Of a stretch of 64,000 nucleotides of DNA, positions 35,482-59,154 are shown in pieces (position 1 is the stretch's first letter; each line of letters opens with the position of its first letter). A model generated the notes under the pieces. That model did not search any database. It had not been told where the DNA came from and worked only from the letters and a program-made list of their open reading frames with translations. Origin of the DNA: Candidatus Microthrix parvicella Bio17-1 (GTDB taxonomy: Bacteria; Actinomycetota; Acidimicrobiia; Acidimicrobiales; Microtrichaceae); contig NZ_AMPG01000002.1 in NCBI RefSeq assembly GCF_000299415.1, positions 682,001 through 746,000 on the forward strand, in the 5' to 3' direction. The translations under genes were made by a program, and so were the position numbers.

Positions 35482-36105
35482 TTATCCGCCCGGCTGTGCA
35501 CCCTGTGACGGGGCCGGTTGCGAAGTGGGTGAGGAAGCCTGCACCTCATCGGTGGCGGGGGCGCTGTTGCGGGCCAGGAACCTCAGGCGGGCGGCCCGGG
35601 CGTCCCAGTCGTACACGACCGATGATCCGGCCAGCACGTCGTACAAGGTCCTGCGCCGCCCATCGACCAGCGCCCACAGGAACCCGAAGCCGAACGTGAC
35701 GAACCCCAGCGGAAACGTCACCGCTCGAACCAGCGCCTTGCCGGGGGACAGCACGGCGCCGTCGGTGCGCACCACCCGGATTCCGAAGAGCGCCATGCCC
35801 GGGGTACGTCCGCTGGCCGCCCACGGATAGGTGAAATACACCAACCACCACAGCGCGTAGGCCACAGTGGCCACCGCCGTCGGGATCTTCAAATCCGATG
35901 CCTGCCCGTTGATCGCACGATTCCCGGCATCCAGGAAGGCCAGGGTCACGGTGTACAGCCCGTTGACGATGCCCTGGTCGACGGCATATCCCACCAGCCG
36001 GGTGACCGGCCCCGCATAGTGACCCTGGCGGGTCACGGCCAGTTGTTGGGCGTCAGGACCAACCGCTGCGCCAAGGCCGGTGCCGGATGGGACGAAGGTG
36101 GTCAT
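35482..36105 (-). CDS. RDD-family membrane protein
   Basis: A 207-residue RDD protein, named for conserved Arg-Asp-Asp positions; here the first helix has VTRLVGYAVDQGIVNGLYTV. The second part has the SGRTPGMALFGIRVVRTDG motif and the ALVDGRRRTLYDVLAGSSVVY segment typical of the family. Three membrane helices are visible. The start at 36105 overlaps the stop of the nonapeptide-repeat gene (36102), so the two proteins are made together. RDD proteins have been linked to transport or membrane stress, but the role here is unknown. Confidence 0.85.
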   Translation of the reverse strand: MTTFVPSGTGLGAAVGPDAQQLAVTRQGHYAGPVTRLVGYAVDQGIVNGLYTVTLAFLDAGNRAINGQASDLKIPTAVATVAYALWWLVYFTYPWAASGRTPGMALFGIRVVRTDGAVLSPGKALVRAVTFPLGFVTFGFGFLWALVDGRRRTLYDVLAGSSVVYDWDARAARLRFLARNSAPATDEVQASSPTSQPAPSQGAQPGG

Positions 36106-36785
36106 CGGGGTTCCCCCGGCGCCGCGGCGGCGCCGGCATCGTCGGGCACCAACAACGGGGGCCCCTTCGGAAGCCCCGATCGGTCTCGCCGCAGGAGTCG
36201 GGCCATCCACCGATCGACGAAGCCGTCCAGGCCGACGCCCTGTGCCCTGACCACGTCGAGGGCCTCGGACGCCACCCCGCTGGTTGACTTGGCGATGATG
36301 CCGCCCAACTCGGTGTTCTGAACCAATGAATCAACGTCGATGCGGCCGACCATGGAGTTGATGTCCACCCGGGTCAACAACGCATCGATGTCCACCCGTT
36401 TCATCAACGCGTCGATATCGACCGCCGCCATGATCGAGTCCACATTGACCCGGGAAACGACGCCGTCCACATCGACCCTGGCGACGACGGCGTCGACGTC
36501 AACCCGAGCGACCACCGCGTCCACGTCAACCTGCGCCACCACCTCGTCCACGTCGACCCGGGCGATCAATGCGTCGACGTCCACCTTCTCCATCAGCGCA
36601 TTGATGTCGATGCGGTCGATCAGAGCACCCACATCGATGCGGGCCAACACCCGGTCGAGGTCGAGCCGGTCCAGCAGGTCGTTGAGATCGATGCCGGACA
36701 GAATCTCGTTGAGGTCGAGCGCACCGGTGACCGCCGAGGTCACCCGGCCAAACAACCCGCCTCCAGATCCCTGATCACCGTCCAC
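36102..36785 (-). CDS. Nonapeptide-repeat protein (about 15 copies) coupled to an RDD protein
   Basis: A 227-residue protein whose middle (residues 24-158) is a run of about 15 nine-residue repeats with consensus D-[VI]-[DN]-x-[LV]-[VLIM]-x-[RK]-[VI], e.g. DVDAVVARV twice in a row. A short Gly-rich N terminus (GSGGGLFGRVTSAVTG) precedes it. After the repeats come a degenerate unit, a helix (GVASEALDVVRAQGVGLDGFVDRWM) and a basic tail. No catalytic motif is seen. Regular spacing of an acidic residue and three hydrophobics suggests a solenoid or a membrane-associated amphipathic array. The GTG at 36785 is the most likely start, though its ribosome binding site is weak. Confidence 0.72.
   Translation of the reverse strand: MDGDQGSGGGLFGRVTSAVTGALDLNEILSGIDLNDLLDRLDLDRVLARIDVGALIDRIDINALMEKVDVDALIARVDVDEVVAQVDVDAVVARVDVDAVVARVDVDGVVSRVNVDSIMAAVDIDALMKRVDIDALLTRVDINSMVGRIDVDSLVQNTELGGIIAKSTSGVASEALDVVRAQGVGLDGFVDRWMARLLRRDRSGLPKGPPLLVPDDAGAAAAPGEPR
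36312..36716. repeat. 27-bp imperfect tandem repeats encoding the nonapeptide array
   Basis: About 15 units of 27 bp with recurring GTCGACGTG- and GCGTCGACG-like words. Adjacent copies near 36480-36530 are nearly identical, consistent with expansion by duplication. Confidence 0.8.
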
Positions 36786-37953: not shown

Positions 37954-39203
37954 GAGAAGAGCTTCAGTCGCTCGACCGCCGCGGGCACCGCAACGAGGGC
38001 GGCGTCCACGTCGGCGTCGGTGCTCGCTGCCCCCAACGTCAGGCGCAACGCCCCGAGCGCCACCTCACGGGGCTGGCCCAGCGCCTCGACCACGTACGAC
38101 GGCTCCTGTGCGCCGCTTGCGCACGACGAGGCCGCCGTGGCCATGATGCCCGCCCGCTCCAACAGGTACAGCAGCGCCTCGGTCTCCACTCCCGGCAGGC
38201 AGACGTGGCAGTTGCCCGCCACCTTGCTCGACCGGTCGGACATGGTGGCGGCACGCTGATCGGCGGTGGCGGCCGCCACACCCGTTTCGATCAGGCCGGG
38301 AATGGCGGCCGAAAGCCCGTCGGCCAGGCGGTCACGCAGCGCGGCGATGCGCACCAGGTCCTCGTCGCGATGGTTGGCGGTGGCCCGGGCTGCTGCGGCC
38401 ATCCCCAGCACCCCTGCCACGTTGAGGGTGCCGGCACGACGGTCGCGCTCCTGACCGCCCCCAACCGCCCGCGGCGACAGGTGAAGACCGTCACGCACCA
38501 CCAGCAGTCCGATGCCCTTTGGGCCGCCAAACTTGTGTGCCCCCACCGAAATCAGGTCGGCCCGAGCCGCCGACACAGCAACGTCCAGCCACTGGTGGGC
38601 CTGCACGGCGTCGGTGTGCAGGATCGCCTCCGGAGCATGACGGCGCACCACATCGGCCACCGCATTCAGCGTGGCGATGGTGCCCACCTCGTTGTTGACG
38701 AGGATCACCGAGACCAACCCCACCGTGGTGCCGGCCCTCGTCGCCGCGCTGAGCGTCGCCTCCAGAACATCGAGGTCCACCCGTCCCCGGCCATCGACGG
38801 CCACCTCCACACCACCGAGATCACGGGTCGGCTGACGCACCGCCGGGTGCTCGATGGCGGAGCACAGCACGGCCTGGCCCTCCCTCGGGCCGCCATGCCC
38901 CACCGTGCCGTAGACGGCCAGGTTGTCGGCCTCGGTGCCGCCGGAGGTAAAGACGATCTCCGAGGGCCGGGCGCCAAACAACTCGGCCAACTCGTCGCGG
39001 GCATCGTCGGCGGCGCGACGGGCGCGGCGGGCCATCAGGTGACCGCCCGATGGGTTGGCCCACAGATCGCCCTGGGTGACCCGTGCCATGGCCTCGGCGG
39101 CCTCCGGTCGAAGCGGCGTGGTGGCGGCATGATCGAGGTAGTGCACCGGCACGTCCTCCTCGTCCGACGCAATGGTTGATTCGTGCTCGGCACCGGTCAT
39201 CAT
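37950..39203 (-). CDS. Cysteine desulfurase (IscS/NifS family)
   Basis: PLP enzyme that takes sulfur from cysteine as a persulfide. The 417-residue product has YLDHAATTPLRPEA, SGGTEADNLA, the Schiff-base Lys in GAHKFGGPKG, and the catalytic Cys in ASSCASGAQEP near residue 363. A short loop around this cysteine fits group I enzymes. The start lies at overlapping ATGATG (39203/39200), with GGAG 4 nt upstream, and overlaps the RDD gene stop. It is followed directly by mnmA, suggesting it feeds tRNA thiolation, and possibly Fe-S cluster assembly. Confidence 0.94.
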   Translation of the reverse strand: MMTGAEHESTIASDEEDVPVHYLDHAATTPLRPEAAEAMARVTQGDLWANPSGGHLMARRARRAADDARDELAELFGARPSEIVFTSGGTEADNLAVYGTVGHGGPREGQAVLCSAIEHPAVRQPTRDLGGVEVAVDGRGRVDLDVLEATLSAATRAGTTVGLVSVILVNNEVGTIATLNAVADVVRRHAPEAILHTDAVQAHQWLDVAVSAARADLISVGAHKFGGPKGIGLLVVRDGLHLSPRAVGGGQERDRRAGTLNVAGVLGMAAAARATANHRDEDLVRIAALRDRLADGLSAAIPGLIETGVAAATADQRAATMSDRSSKVAGNCHVCLPGVETEALLYLLERAGIMATAASSCASGAQEPSYVVEALGQPREVALGALRLTLGAASTDADVDAALVAVPAAVERLKLFS

Positions 39204-40123
39204 GGGCTCCATCCGCCGACCGCCACCGGCTGGTTGACCGCGGCGCCGGTCCACAGCGGTGGCCCGCTGGGGGCGGCCCACCCGCCGGCCGGGTTGGTGA
39301 CCGCCGTTTCGTAGTCTCCCAACCCGACTGCGGCCAAACCGCCCTGACGCCGCTGATAGGCCGAACACACGGCCGTCAGAAACTCTTCGGCCGTCATCCA
39401 CGTGGGTACCGGAATGCCGATGCGCGCCACGACGCGATGACCGAGTTCGTTGGTGATCGCCCGGCGGGTGGCCGGATCGAGGGCGCCCAGCCGCAGGAGC
39501 ACCTCCCGCACCATGCCGTAACCGGCGTCACTCAGCCGTGCGACGTCCAACAGACCGACATACTCGCCATGACCGGGAGGCGTGGGGAACACCACCGGTT
39601 GAAGCCGCTTGTCCGATGCCTGGTCGCTGACCACAAACGTTCCGGCCATGAGGTCGCCCAGCCGCTGCGCCTTCGGGCTGAAAAACGAGGCGATGATCGC
39701 CAAGGCACCGATGGTCAAATAGATCTCCACCAAGCCGGCGATGGCACGCATGAGCGACTCGGACCATCCCACCGGACCGCCTTCGCCTGAGATCACCCGC
39801 AACCCAACCGCAGCCTTGCCGGGGGTTCGGCCCCGCCACAACGCCTCGAACGCCGCCGGGTAACCGACGAGCACCGCCAGGAACGATCCGAAGAACAGGT
39901 AGGCGGCAACGGTCCCGGACGAATTGGACACGATCAGTGCTGCAATGCCGAAGATCAACAGGATCACGGCTTGCAGCAACGTATCGAGCAGGCGGGCCAG
40001 CAGGCGACTGGGGATACCGGCCACCGGCTGGCTCAACAGCACCGCCTCGGGCGTCACCACGGTGTTTGGGTCCGCAGCCAGACCACGACGGCTGACATCG
40101 GCAAACTGCGGGACGGGGCTCAC
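39200..40123 (-). CDS. RDD-family membrane protein
   Basis: A 307-residue protein. An RDD domain (about residues 30-175) holds SRLLARLLDTLLQAVILLIF, the GRTPGKAAVGLRVISGEG motif, and AQRLGDLMAGTFVVSDQ. A C-terminal soluble extension of about 130 residues follows, with Pro-rich tail. The GTG at 40123 is chosen because a TAACCT box lies 7 nt upstream and the longer open frame has no conserved content. It is divergent from the SpoIIM-like gene only 57 bp away; this RDD/SpoIIM pairing recurs in actinobacteria. Function unknown. Confidence 0.85.
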   Translation of the reverse strand: MSPVPQFADVSRRGLAADPNTVVTPEAVLLSQPVAGIPSRLLARLLDTLLQAVILLIFGIAALIVSNSSGTVAAYLFFGSFLAVLVGYPAAFEALWRGRTPGKAAVGLRVISGEGGPVGWSESLMRAIAGLVEIYLTIGALAIIASFFSPKAQRLGDLMAGTFVVSDQASDKRLQPVVFPTPPGHGEYVGLLDVARLSDAGYGMVREVLLRLGALDPATRRAITNELGHRVVARIGIPVPTWMTAEEFLTAVCSAYQRRQGGLAAVGLGDYETAVTNPAGGWAAPSGPPLWTGAAVNQPVAVGGWSP

Positions 40124-40130
40124 CCGCCTC

Positions 40131-40136
40131 AGGTTA
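40131..40136 (-). promoter_or_regulatory. Leaderless-type -10 box (TAACCT) before the RDD gene
   Basis: On the minus strand TAACCT ends 7 nt before the GTG at 40123. It is 32 bp from the facing -10 box of the SpoIIM-like gene. Confidence 0.5.
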
Positions 40137-40168
40137 CCGGCCAGGACCCCAACGAGAGCCGCCACCGG

Positions 40169-40174
40169 TACGCT
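40169..40174 (+). promoter_or_regulatory. Leaderless-type -10 box (TACGCT) before the SpoIIM-like gene
   Basis: TACGCT ends 6 nt before the GTG at 40181. It forms a tight divergent promoter pair with the box at 40131-40136. Confidence 0.5.
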
Positions 40175-40180
40175 GGGTGG

Positions 40181-41260
40181 GTGGATGTCGACCGCTACAT
40201 CGCCGCCCACCGGGCCACCTGGACCCGACTCGATGAGCTGGTCGGCCGCGCCCAGGTGGCGCCGGGACGCCTCAGCCTGGATGAGACCGAGGAACTGCTC
40301 CGGCTCTATCAGCTGACGTCCGCCCACCTCAGCCACGTTCGCACCAACCATCGCGACCAGGTGCTGATCGGCGGCCTGAGCTCCCGGGTGGCCGCCGCCC
40401 GCCAGGTGATCTACGGCCGACGGGCTCGGGCCCAGCGGGCGCTCGTGTCGTTCTTCACGGTCGGCTTTCCGCTGGCCGTGGTGCAGGCACGGCGGGCCAT
40501 CGCCATGTCGGCGCTGTTGCTCCTTGGTTCAGCTCTCGCAACCGGAATTTGGTTCAACAATTCGCCGGAGGCCCTCGACGTCACCATCTCCCCCGAACAG
40601 CAGGAGTTGATTGCGAATCACGAGTTCGAGCAGTACTACAGCTCACAGGGCGCAGGGCAGTTTGCGGCCCAGGTGCAGACCAACAACATCCAGGTGAGCC
40701 TGTTGGCATTGGCGGGCGGCGCAACCGCCGGCACGCTGACCGTCGCTGTGCTGCTGTCCAACGGTTTCAGCCTCGGTGCAGTGGGTGCGCTGATGCACCA
40801 GAACGACGCTGCCGGAACGTTCTGGGGCCTGATCCTGCCTCACGGGCTTTTGGAGATCTCGGCCATCATCGTGGCGGGCGCGGTCGGCCTGAAGTTGGGA
40901 TGGGCGATCCTGGCTCCTGGCGAGGATCGCAGCCGCACCGAGGCCATCACCAGCGAGGCCCGCAACGGCGTCACCATCGTGGTTGGCCTGGCGATCTGGT
41001 TTGTGGTGGCCGGGTTCATCGAGGCGCTGGTGACCCCGTCAGGGCTGCCCGCAGCGGTCCGCATCCTCATCGGCGTCCTGGCCCTGGCCGCGGCGGTGCT
41101 GCACGTGCTGGCGTTCGGGCCCGCTGCGCTGGCGCAGGCCCGCTCGGATGACGCGACCGATCCTTGGGAGTCCGAACGCGCCGACCTCGCGAGAGCGGAC
41201 AAGCTGACCTCCGGCATCGTGGCCGGCACCCCCGCTCCTACAGCGCCCCGCGCGCCTTGA
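40181..41260 (+). CDS. Stage II sporulation protein M-like membrane protein
   Basis: A 359-residue SpoIIM-family protein. The N-terminal about 100 residues are helical and soluble (YIAAHRATWTRLDELVGRA, LDETEELLRLYQLTSAHL). The membrane part has ALVSFFTVGFPLAVVQARRAIAMSALLLLG, a periplasmic loop with the family segment NNIQVSLLALAGG, ILPHGLLEISAIIVAGAVGL, and two C-terminal helices. In Bacillus SpoIIM scaffolds a peptidoglycan-degrading complex in engulfment, but non-sporulating actinobacteria keep it beside MoxR and DUF58 genes for an unknown role. The last 23 bp overlap the convergent DUF58 gene. Confidence 0.85.
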   Translation: MDVDRYIAAHRATWTRLDELVGRAQVAPGRLSLDETEELLRLYQLTSAHLSHVRTNHRDQVLIGGLSSRVAAARQVIYGRRARAQRALVSFFTVGFPLAVVQARRAIAMSALLLLGSALATGIWFNNSPEALDVTISPEQQELIANHEFEQYYSSQGAGQFAAQVQTNNIQVSLLALAGGATAGTLTVAVLLSNGFSLGAVGALMHQNDAAGTFWGLILPHGLLEISAIIVAGAVGLKLGWAILAPGEDRSRTEAITSEARNGVTIVVGLAIWFVVAGFIEALVTPSGLPAAVRILIGVLALAAAVLHVLAFGPAALAQARSDDATDPWESERADLARADKLTSGIVAGTPAPTAPRAP

Positions 41261-57705: not shown

Positions 57706-57711
57706 GTGGCG

Positions 57712-58530
57712 ATGGGGACACGGCGCCTGCTTGGACGCATCACTCTCGCCGTTGGCATCCTCGCACTTCTGGCGTCCGTGGCCGGTTGCGGCGGCGGTGA
57801 CAGCGAGGTCGTCGACGAGGGTCCACAACCCAGGGCACCCATGGTCAACGCGCCGTCCCTGCCGATCGAGGGCATCGCGGCCTCCGCCGTCGCCACCGGC
57901 GTCCCCACCTGGCGCAGCTACGTGGCGACCGGCAAGGAGGACCTGGCGTCGGTCCCGGTGTTCAAAGCACCGGGCGGCGAGCAGATCGCCACCGTGCCCA
58001 ACCGAACGAACGACGGGTTTCCCGCTGTGTTTCTGGTTCGCAGGTTGGATGTACCCGGGCCTGACGCAACGGTGTGGCACGAGGTGTGGCTCCCGATTCG
58101 CCCCAACGGTAGTCACGGCTACGTCCGTGGCGACGACGTCACGCTCAGCTACCACGACTACAAGCTGCGGGTGAACCTGTCGGATCACCGCCTCAGCCTG
58201 TACACCGCCGGTCAGCTCACCACCACCTACCCGGTGGGTGTCGGGCAGGACCGTACGCCCACTCCCGGAGGCACCTTCTACACCAAGGAACTCTTGCAAC
58301 CGACCAATCGAGGTGGCCCGTACGGCACGTTCGCGTATGGCCTCTCGGGCTTCTCCAACACCTTGACATCTTTTGCGGGCAGCGACGGGGTGGTCGGCAT
58401 TCATGGCACCGATCAACCTGACACGGTGGGCACCGACGTGTCAGCCGGCTGCATCCGCATGAACAACGCCGACATCAACGAGCTTGCCCGGCGCCTGCCG
58501 CTTGGTGTTCCCGTCGAGATCGTGGCCTAA
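57712..58530 (+). CDS. L,D-transpeptidase lipoprotein
   Basis: A 272-residue envelope enzyme of the YkuD family that forms 3-3 peptidoglycan cross-links or anchors proteins. The N terminus is a lipoprotein signal (LVGILALLASVAGC-like, lipobox Cys near residue 25). The catalytic domain shows YKLRVNLSDHRLSLYTAGQ, GIHGTDQPDTVGTDVSAGCI with the active His and Cys in HGT and SAGCIRM. The ATG at 57712 follows a TACGCT box by 6 nt; a GTG at 57706 also fits. The length is normal for an actinobacterial Ldt with one catalytic domain. Confidence 0.92.
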   Translation: MGTRRLLGRITLAVGILALLASVAGCGGGDSEVVDEGPQPRAPMVNAPSLPIEGIAASAVATGVPTWRSYVATGKEDLASVPVFKAPGGEQIATVPNRTNDGFPAVFLVRRLDVPGPDATVWHEVWLPIRPNGSHGYVRGDDVTLSYHDYKLRVNLSDHRLSLYTAGQLTTTYPVGVGQDRTPTPGGTFYTKELLQPTNRGGPYGTFAYGLSGFSNTLTSFAGSDGVVGIHGTDQPDTVGTDVSAGCIRMNNADINELARRLPLGVPVEIVA

Positions 58531-58563: not shown

Positions 58564-58600
58564 TCAGCAGGTCAGCAGGTCAGCAGGTCAGCAGGTCAGC
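58564..58600. repeat. 8-bp tandem repeat (TCAGCAGG), four copies plus a partial
   Basis: A tandem octamer lies between the convergent stops of the L,D-transpeptidase and alpha/beta hydrolase genes and runs through the hydrolase stop codon. A change of one unit would shift the C terminus of the hydrolase. Confidence 0.9.
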
Positions 58601-59154
58601 CATGTGGCGATCCGACCGGCCACATCGGCATTGTCGGCCTTTCGTTTCAGCTCGTGGCGACCACCCTCCACCCACTCGACGCTCACCGGGCCGCTCACCA
58701 ACGCGTGCGCCCTCCGCAGCTCCTGCGGCGTACCGAACGCATCGAGATCCCCCGAGACGAACAGGGTGGGCACTGCGACGGCCTCAAGATGGGCTGTGCG
58801 GAGGGTTTCGGGCTTTTTGGGTGGATGCAGGGGGTAGGAGACCAGCACCAGCCCGGCAGCCTTCACGGCCCCTTCGGCCAGAGCCATCGATGCCATGCGC
58901 CCACCCATCGACCGACCGCCGATCACCAGCCGCGACGGGTCGGTGTCCCATTGCTCGGCCGCTCGATTGACCGCATCCACCACCTCGACGATCAGCTTGG
59001 GTGCGCGGTCGGGGAACCGACGGCCTTCGGACCGGTAGGCGAAGTCCACTCGGCTCACCGGGAGGGGGGCAACCGCCTCCTCGATGACCAGCAGGCTGGG
59101 GTGATCGGCGCCCGACCCGGCGCCCGGAAAGAGCACCAGGCCGTCCACATCCAT
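58588..59154 (-). CDS. Alpha/beta hydrolase (TEX30/KANSL3-like)
   Basis: A 188-residue small alpha/beta hydrolase. The nucleophile elbow is GGRSMGGRM, the acid is in SGDLDAFG, and the His in EGGRHELKR. The N terminus VLFPGAGSGADHPSL matches the compact family that includes TEX30. Substrate unknown. The coding region ends inside an octamer tandem repeat. It lies 3 bp from the convergence of a short intergenic gap to the J-domain gene (stop 59171, start of this gene at 59154). Confidence 0.83.
   Translation of the reverse strand: MDVDGLVLFPGAGSGADHPSLLVIEEAVAPLPVSRVDFAYRSEGRRFPDRAPKLIVEVVDAVNRAAEQWDTDPSRLVIGGRSMGGRMASMALAEGAVKAAGLVLVSYPLHPPKKPETLRTAHLEAVAVPTLFVSGDLDAFGTPQELRRAHALVSGPVSVEWVEGGRHELKRKADNADVAGRIATWLTC

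Follow-up and report, generated by a model that had tools for sequence, protein, structure and literature searches.

A predicted helical nine-residue repeat and its conserved tail accompany a clade of RDD membrane proteins in actinobacteria

Why should a gene that consists largely of a short tandem repeat share bases with the gene for an RDD membrane protein? The question is raised by a locus in Candidatus Microthrix parvicella Bio17-1, located within the 64,000-nucleotide stretch of DNA that was analysed here (hereafter the window). An earlier note made from the letters of this DNA had described a nonapeptide array overlapping an RDD gene by four bases, and had guessed at either a solenoid or an extended amphipathic array resting on the membrane. 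We asked what the repeat protein is made of, how regularly it accompanies RDD proteins elsewhere, and which role the pair might have.

Read from a candidate GTG start, the repeat gene encodes a protein of 227 amino acids (Table 1). Its array comprises 15 in-phase units of nine residues and carries a net charge of -17 over 135 residues. Position 1 of the unit is D in 14/15 copies and position 3 is D or N in 14/15; positions 2, 5 and 6 are V, I, L or M throughout, position 9 is V, I or L in 14/15, and position 8 is R in 10/15. The copy number of about 15 given in the earlier note stands for a looser pattern, whereas the strict form proposed there, D-[VI]-[DN]-x-[LV]-x-x-[RK]-[VI], fits 7 units only. 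The protein shows 68 identities at a lag of nine residues, whereas 2000 shuffled sequences averaged 21.1 and never exceeded 36, and a loose motif occurs 13 times with every step equal to nine (shuffle maximum 2). At the DNA level, 27-bp tandem repeats with 76-83% matches lie within 36360-36585. The nine-residue periodicity of the window protein is far beyond chance.

The array is not accompanied by "little else", as had been supposed. It is followed by a tail of about 55 residues that aligns without gaps across 14 relatives (alignment A1), with a sequence of the type STSGVASEALD.VRSQGVGLD....R...R.LRRD..LP.GP. Lacking the repetitiveness of the array, the tail provided a clean probe for relatives. 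Upstream of the repeat gene lie a tRNA-thiolase-like gene (mnmA) and a class V aminotransferase gene. A Ser/Thr-rich open frame of 144 aa on the opposite strand, 36340-36774 (+), is taken as an artefact of the repeat. Elsewhere in the window, the 8-bp unit TCAGCAGG is repeated without mismatch for 4.6 copies at 58564-58600; the repeat sits between the frames 57706-58530 (+) and 58588-59154 (-), entering the end of the latter.

Table 1. Coordinates of the repeat gene, its RDD partner and the loci with 13-residue units (the last three rows use the numbering of the locus named)
Feature	Coordinates	Strand	Basis or remark
Array-tail protein, coding sequence	36102..36785	-	start codon is a candidate; further in-frame starts upstream
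N-terminal segment, residues 1-23	36717..36785	-	Gly-rich, then a short possible helix
Array, 15 in-phase nine-residue units, residues 24-158	36312..36716	-	periodicity and 27-bp DNA repeats
Conserved tail, residues 159-213	36147..36311	-	alignment A1
RDD membrane protein gene, 207 aa	35482..36105	-	PF06271
RDD domain, residues 30-160 of the 207-aa protein	35626..36018	-	PF06271 match
ATGA overlap of both genes	36102..36105	-	four bases common to the repeat-gene stop and the RDD start ATG
13-residue locus L221	808-2151	-	similar tail
13-residue locus L222	880-1929		similar tail
13-residue locus L223	964-1968		similar tail

The four-base overlap described in the earlier note is present, and the partner gene encodes a plain member of the RDD family as judged from its sequence: it matches PF06271 over profile positions 1-137 of 137 with E = 9.9e-24 and 84.6 bits (cut-off 24.1). 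Array and tail, by comparison, yielded only matches below the cut-offs of Pfam and NCBIfam, and none of the Pfam repeat families matched the array. Two acetylglutamate kinases were returned by phmmer with the window protein against PDB sequences (E 2.6e-4 and 4.2e-4, residues 73-157, within the array); because the composition of the array is repetitive, they are taken as chance matches. A profile search of PDB sequences did not recover the kinases; all it returned were betaine aldehyde dehydrogenases, none better than E 0.2. A confident match to a characterised repeat family, which would have counted against the earlier note, was thus not found in Pfam, NCBIfam or PDB sequences.

The tail served as a marker of the module in other genomes. 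In the class sample (246 genomes) the tail profile matched 53 genomes at E <= 0.001, and in the phylum sample (296 genomes) it matched 23, with 10 genomes common to both lists; only a capped number of initial candidates was scored in each genome, so weak arrays or tails may escape. The tail locus was inspected individually in every tail-positive genome of the two samples, and in all of them (53/53 and 23/23) the tail was either fused to an RDD domain or located just before one. The link to RDD genes elsewhere in actinobacteria, which the earlier note mentions and whose absence would have refuted it, is thereby borne out, many of the cases being fusions. When loci L001-L163 and L236-L257 were pooled and duplicates removed, all 152 tail-positive loci were coupled to RDD, 54 as a single frame and 98 as separate genes. 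Because a scan with RDD in the query supplied part of this pool, the class and phylum samples test the coupling more cleanly. At the 98 separate loci the distance from the stop codon to the RDD domain ranges from -22 to 275 bases (median 35), and 82 show a four-base [AG]TGA overlap that lies in the RDD frame.

The array was also searched without the tail. An array-only profile matched 22 of 296 genomes (E <= 1e-5, at most 21 candidates scored per genome), and every match listed was an RDD-coupled tail locus or the antisense strand of one; such antisense matches arise from the repeat and are artefactual. In another search 28 of 61 genomes matched, of which 26 were RDD-coupled and one, locus L028 of genome G018, was truncated where it runs off its contig. 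The remaining match (L030, genome G049) was dropped as an artefact, since it reads the antisense strand of a repeat protein rich in Gly and Asp, which we took for RTX. A tblastn search of contigs with the window protein found no relative, which we ascribe to its repetitive sequence.

A second scan of contigs used an alignment of fused proteins, RDD included, as the query; 80 of its 91 matches were taken, as a sample and not a census. The pair was present at 76 of 78 loci from named or MAG records among the matches taken (35 fused, 41 separate). One of the other two starts at a contig end (L153), while the second, L146, is a real exception to RDD pairing: at 422-2241 of this locus an array with a degenerate tail shares a GTGA overlap with an alpha/beta hydrolase gene (Abhydrolase_3), and RDD was not found in the stretch examined. 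A nearby gene at L146 resembles a PlsC acyltransferase in its motifs. In the flanks of the 78 loci (genes of at least 130 aa), the commonest cluster after array and RDD occurred in 6 loci only; neighbouring genes give no functional clue. The module extends over Acidimicrobiia MAGs, Nocardioides, Kribbella, Streptomyces, Rhodococcus and Gordonia. At L089, L101 and L093 the pair is found under MAG titles of Acidobacteria or Myxococcales, which may be mislabelled bins or reflect transfer.

The array itself is the variable part of the module. Counted with a unit motif and bridging at most two misses, the number of units ranges from 3 to 36 over 125 distinct arrays, and multi-unit blocks are repeated in L116 (Nocardioides sp. 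zg-1308) and L154 (Streptomyces spinosisporus). At six loci in five genomes (L250, L252-L256) the nine-residue motif was not found, and tail and RDD are kept; no array is seen in L238 and L245 either, but both are cut at contig ends and were excluded from this count. The array is thus not required for tail and RDD to stay together. The variable unit number and the six motif-free loci suggest that tail and RDD form the constant core and the array an expandable addition.

One explanation of this variability is that the array is an elastic or neutral filler, lengthening or shortening through tandem duplication and lacking a specific partner, so that only tail and RDD matter. The spread of unit numbers, the duplicated blocks and the motif-free loci are all in its favour. 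Against it, particular positions of the unit are conserved: among 1329 units, D occupies position 1 in 95% (it also served to set the register), hydrophobic residues prevail at positions 2, 5, 6 and 9, and R is found at position 8 in 68%. This indicates a constraint on each unit, although folding alone could demand such constraint. We regard the filler as unlikely, with a real chance nonetheless of being correct.

How might such units fold? The window protein modelled alone by single-sequence AlphaFold2 gave a poor result (mean pLDDT 44.1), with seven-residue helices and two-residue gaps in parts and a low-confidence helix at residues 12-20. A natural fusion from Nocardioides insulae (L091), modelled in one run from the query and 34 aligned natural fusions, reached a mean pLDDT of 81.7 and a pTM of 0.60. 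In this model residues 28-142 form 13 seven-residue helices with a strict nine-residue step and two-residue turns, each helix starting at unit position 2, straight after the Asp. The tail is predicted as a single helix of 38 residues (145-182). Array blocks have pLDDT values of about 71-86, and most blocks of the RDD domain have values of 88-98, with dips to 68 and 78.

The distribution of proline offers a second view of the same units. With the register set by Asp, and with duplicates and arrays of fewer than five in-phase Asp excluded, 69 of 109 prolines in the 1329 units fall at position 2 and 14 of 109 at positions 5-9. The first turn of a helix accommodates proline well. The helix breaks of the model and the proline at position 2 together suggest that a new helix begins with each unit, arguing against one continuous helix. 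The array is probably a row of very short helices, which favours a solenoid, one of the two guesses in the earlier note. The model calls for caution, as AlphaFold2 can yield confident false beta-solenoids for perfect repeats (PMC11795689). With fold searches directed at the RDD part, novelty cannot be claimed for the fold of the array.

The other guess, read as one long amphipathic helix along the inner face of the membrane, would suit the regular alternation of acidic and hydrophobic residues and the coupling to a membrane protein. It fits poorly with the interruption of the predicted helix every 9 residues and with the prolines, mostly at position 2. Moreover, by our own geometry, a continuous helix with a nine-residue repeat would rotate its hydrophobic face by 180 degrees per unit, and a sister group described below has units of 13 residues. 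We consider this arrangement very improbable. Still less credible is a calcium-binding beta-roll of the kind formed by RTX nonapeptide repeats, which the array recalls in its nine-residue length and many Asp. The RTX motif is GGxGxDxUx. It fits 0/15 window units, GGxGxD occurs in no unit, Gly makes up only 4 of the 135 array residues, and the array is predicted to be helical.

What distinguishes the RDD proteins that have an array? In the array-type RDDs of alignment A4, D16 and D129 are invariant (16/16) and R9 is kept in at least 90% of the 16 rows, which follows the family pattern of an R before and a D within the first membrane helix, plus a second D. Fifteen genomes selected for having the module contain 48 RDD matches, 16 with the array-tail module and 32 without it. 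In a tree from which RDD pieces of fewer than 90 residues and identical sequences were excluded, 36 array-coupled RDD domains, drawn from these 15 genomes and from others, are separated from the 32 array-less ones by a branch with 100/99 support. Eight of the 36 are fused, and the fused or separate state changes at least 6 times on the tree, indicating that fusion or fission happened repeatedly. The window has a second, array-less RDD gene at 39200-40351 (-), which overlaps a SpoIIM gene at 39971-41260 (+). Its RDD domain groups among the array-less ones in the tree, and one of the two start sites probably lies further in.

The Halobacillus andaensis RDD protein has been reported to perform Na+(Li+, K+)/H+ antiport, with D158 among its indispensable residues (PMC5996927), which is a reported transport activity of an RDD protein. 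The pair could accordingly be imagined as a cation transporter and its regulator, with the RDD protein acting as such an antiporter and the acidic array sensing or buffering cations. The charge of the array would be suited to this, and an Asp matching D154 is invariant in 16/16 array-type RDDs. However, the equivalent of D158, placed four residues beyond the D154 match by the numbering of that paper, is D in just 1 of the 16 and G in the window protein. In B. subtilis, moreover, deletion or overexpression of the RDD protein SppI is reported to have left salt and alkaline resistance unchanged (PMC7568657). We judge regulation of cation transport to be improbable.

A profile of array-type RDDs matched 75 of 296 genomes (E <= 1e-12); the best 16 matches, all above 138 bits, are array loci, and below 138 bits array and array-less RDDs are intermixed among the 30 loci examined. 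Just below the best matches is a group of loci (L221-L224, L228 and L231) with a similar tail and a different array. The unit of L221 is 13 residues, with 42 lag-13 identities compared with a shuffle maximum of 22; L222 has 24 compared with 22, and L223 has 25 compared with 21. These are the three of five loci tested that pass, while L228 and L231 fail the same lag-13 shuffle test; L224 is cut by its contig and carries the label of the 13-residue type in the tree by affinity only. In an enlarged tree the six sister loci group at 97/93 beside the nine-residue group. Support is 90/50 for the two groups joined, and for the nine-residue group by itself it falls to 90/46 once the sister loci are included; these values are not decisive about how the groups are related. 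Units of 13 and 9 residues differ by four residues, which would be close to one helical turn.

Fold searches with the RDD part of the L091 model (residues 170-355) returned as leading structural match the membrane domain of PEX2/PEX10/PEX12, the peroxisomal retro-translocon. Entry 7t92_A aligned with a VIA Z of 9.6 (rmsd 3.6, 133 aligned residues, 15% identity), the next entry having Z 3.8; values below about 13 may reflect a common helix arrangement in the case of helical bundles. Chains of 7t92 occupied Foldseek ranks 1-3 at E 0.083 to 1.8, and no match reached E 0.001. The Pfam family Pex2_Pex12 (PF04757) was weakly detected in 2 of 16 RDDs (best E 0.042), and a BFVD fold search gave no match below E 1.5. 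These matches are suggestive of a possible kinship of the RDD domain to the PEX2/PEX10/PEX12 fold. The boldest reading of the data would combine an alpha-solenoid class with one short helix per nine residues, a unit able to grow by a helical turn, from 9 to 13 residues, between lineages, a role as the dedicated cytoplasmic arm of an RDD clade, and a possible fold relative in PEX2/PEX10/PEX12. We hold this combination to be a long shot; if it were true, the arm would pass a client on to a channel in the membrane.

Taken together, we consider it on balance probable that the products of the two genes form a single machine, in which a dedicated RDD membrane protein has a cytoplasmic solenoid arm that serves as a scaffold or sensor. 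In each unit a capping Asp would precede a helix of seven residues, with a turn after it, and the solenoid would end in the long tail helix leading to the RDD domain. The arm would be a translationally coupled subunit in the window, and part of the same chain as RDD in other species. We infer the cytoplasmic side, the docking and the scaffold or sensor role; the location follows from the array protein having, by eye, neither signal peptide nor membrane segment, and from the positive ends of the RDD protein. The tail helix might lie at the membrane face beside the point of entry of RDD, with the acidic solenoid facing the cytoplasm as a binding platform or spacer of adjustable length. There it could recruit or sense a partner, whose signal the tail would pass on to the RDD membrane domain. 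Given lengths of up to 36 units and the existence of motif-free loci, the array may be dispensable.

With these results, a gene without a name becomes part of a defined two-gene membrane system, with natural fusions telling which proteins belong together. Single-chain versions in cultured species would make purification and structural work direct. Reports on RDD proteins give differing roles, and a clade with a steady cytoplasmic partner provides a handle on function. Should the nine-residue helical solenoid prove real, it would in our judgement be an unusually compact repeat architecture, and useful for protein design.

In summary, the letters point to a widespread RDD architecture that appears to carry an unusual helical repeat, with no credible family for array or tail. 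The module was not recognised in the text covered by a literature survey, mainly open-access. The partner shares with the RDD family its membership of PF06271, well above the Pfam cut-off. It belongs to a separate clade with an array-tail partner, whereas no such partner is mentioned in the available parts of the reports on the H. andaensis antiporter (PMC5996927) and on SppI, an inhibitor of the SppA protease in B. subtilis (PMC7568657); one residue required for antiport, D158, is mostly absent from array-type RDDs. VanZ-RDD fusions, for which a cytoplasm-facing site within the membrane has been proposed, likewise join RDD to another domain, but the fused domain differs and the accessible part of that report does not mention the array-tail module (PMC12419801). 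RTX proteins have nine-residue tandem units with Asp in common with the array (PMC6891781), but possess a Gly-rich turn motif, which the window array lacks, being predicted helical. With the HEAT, ARM and TPR alpha-solenoids the array would share tandem helical units in variable number, as predicted on the fused relative. HEAT units are reported to be composed of two helices in about 40 residues (PMC11514114), whereas here one helix is predicted for every nine residues.
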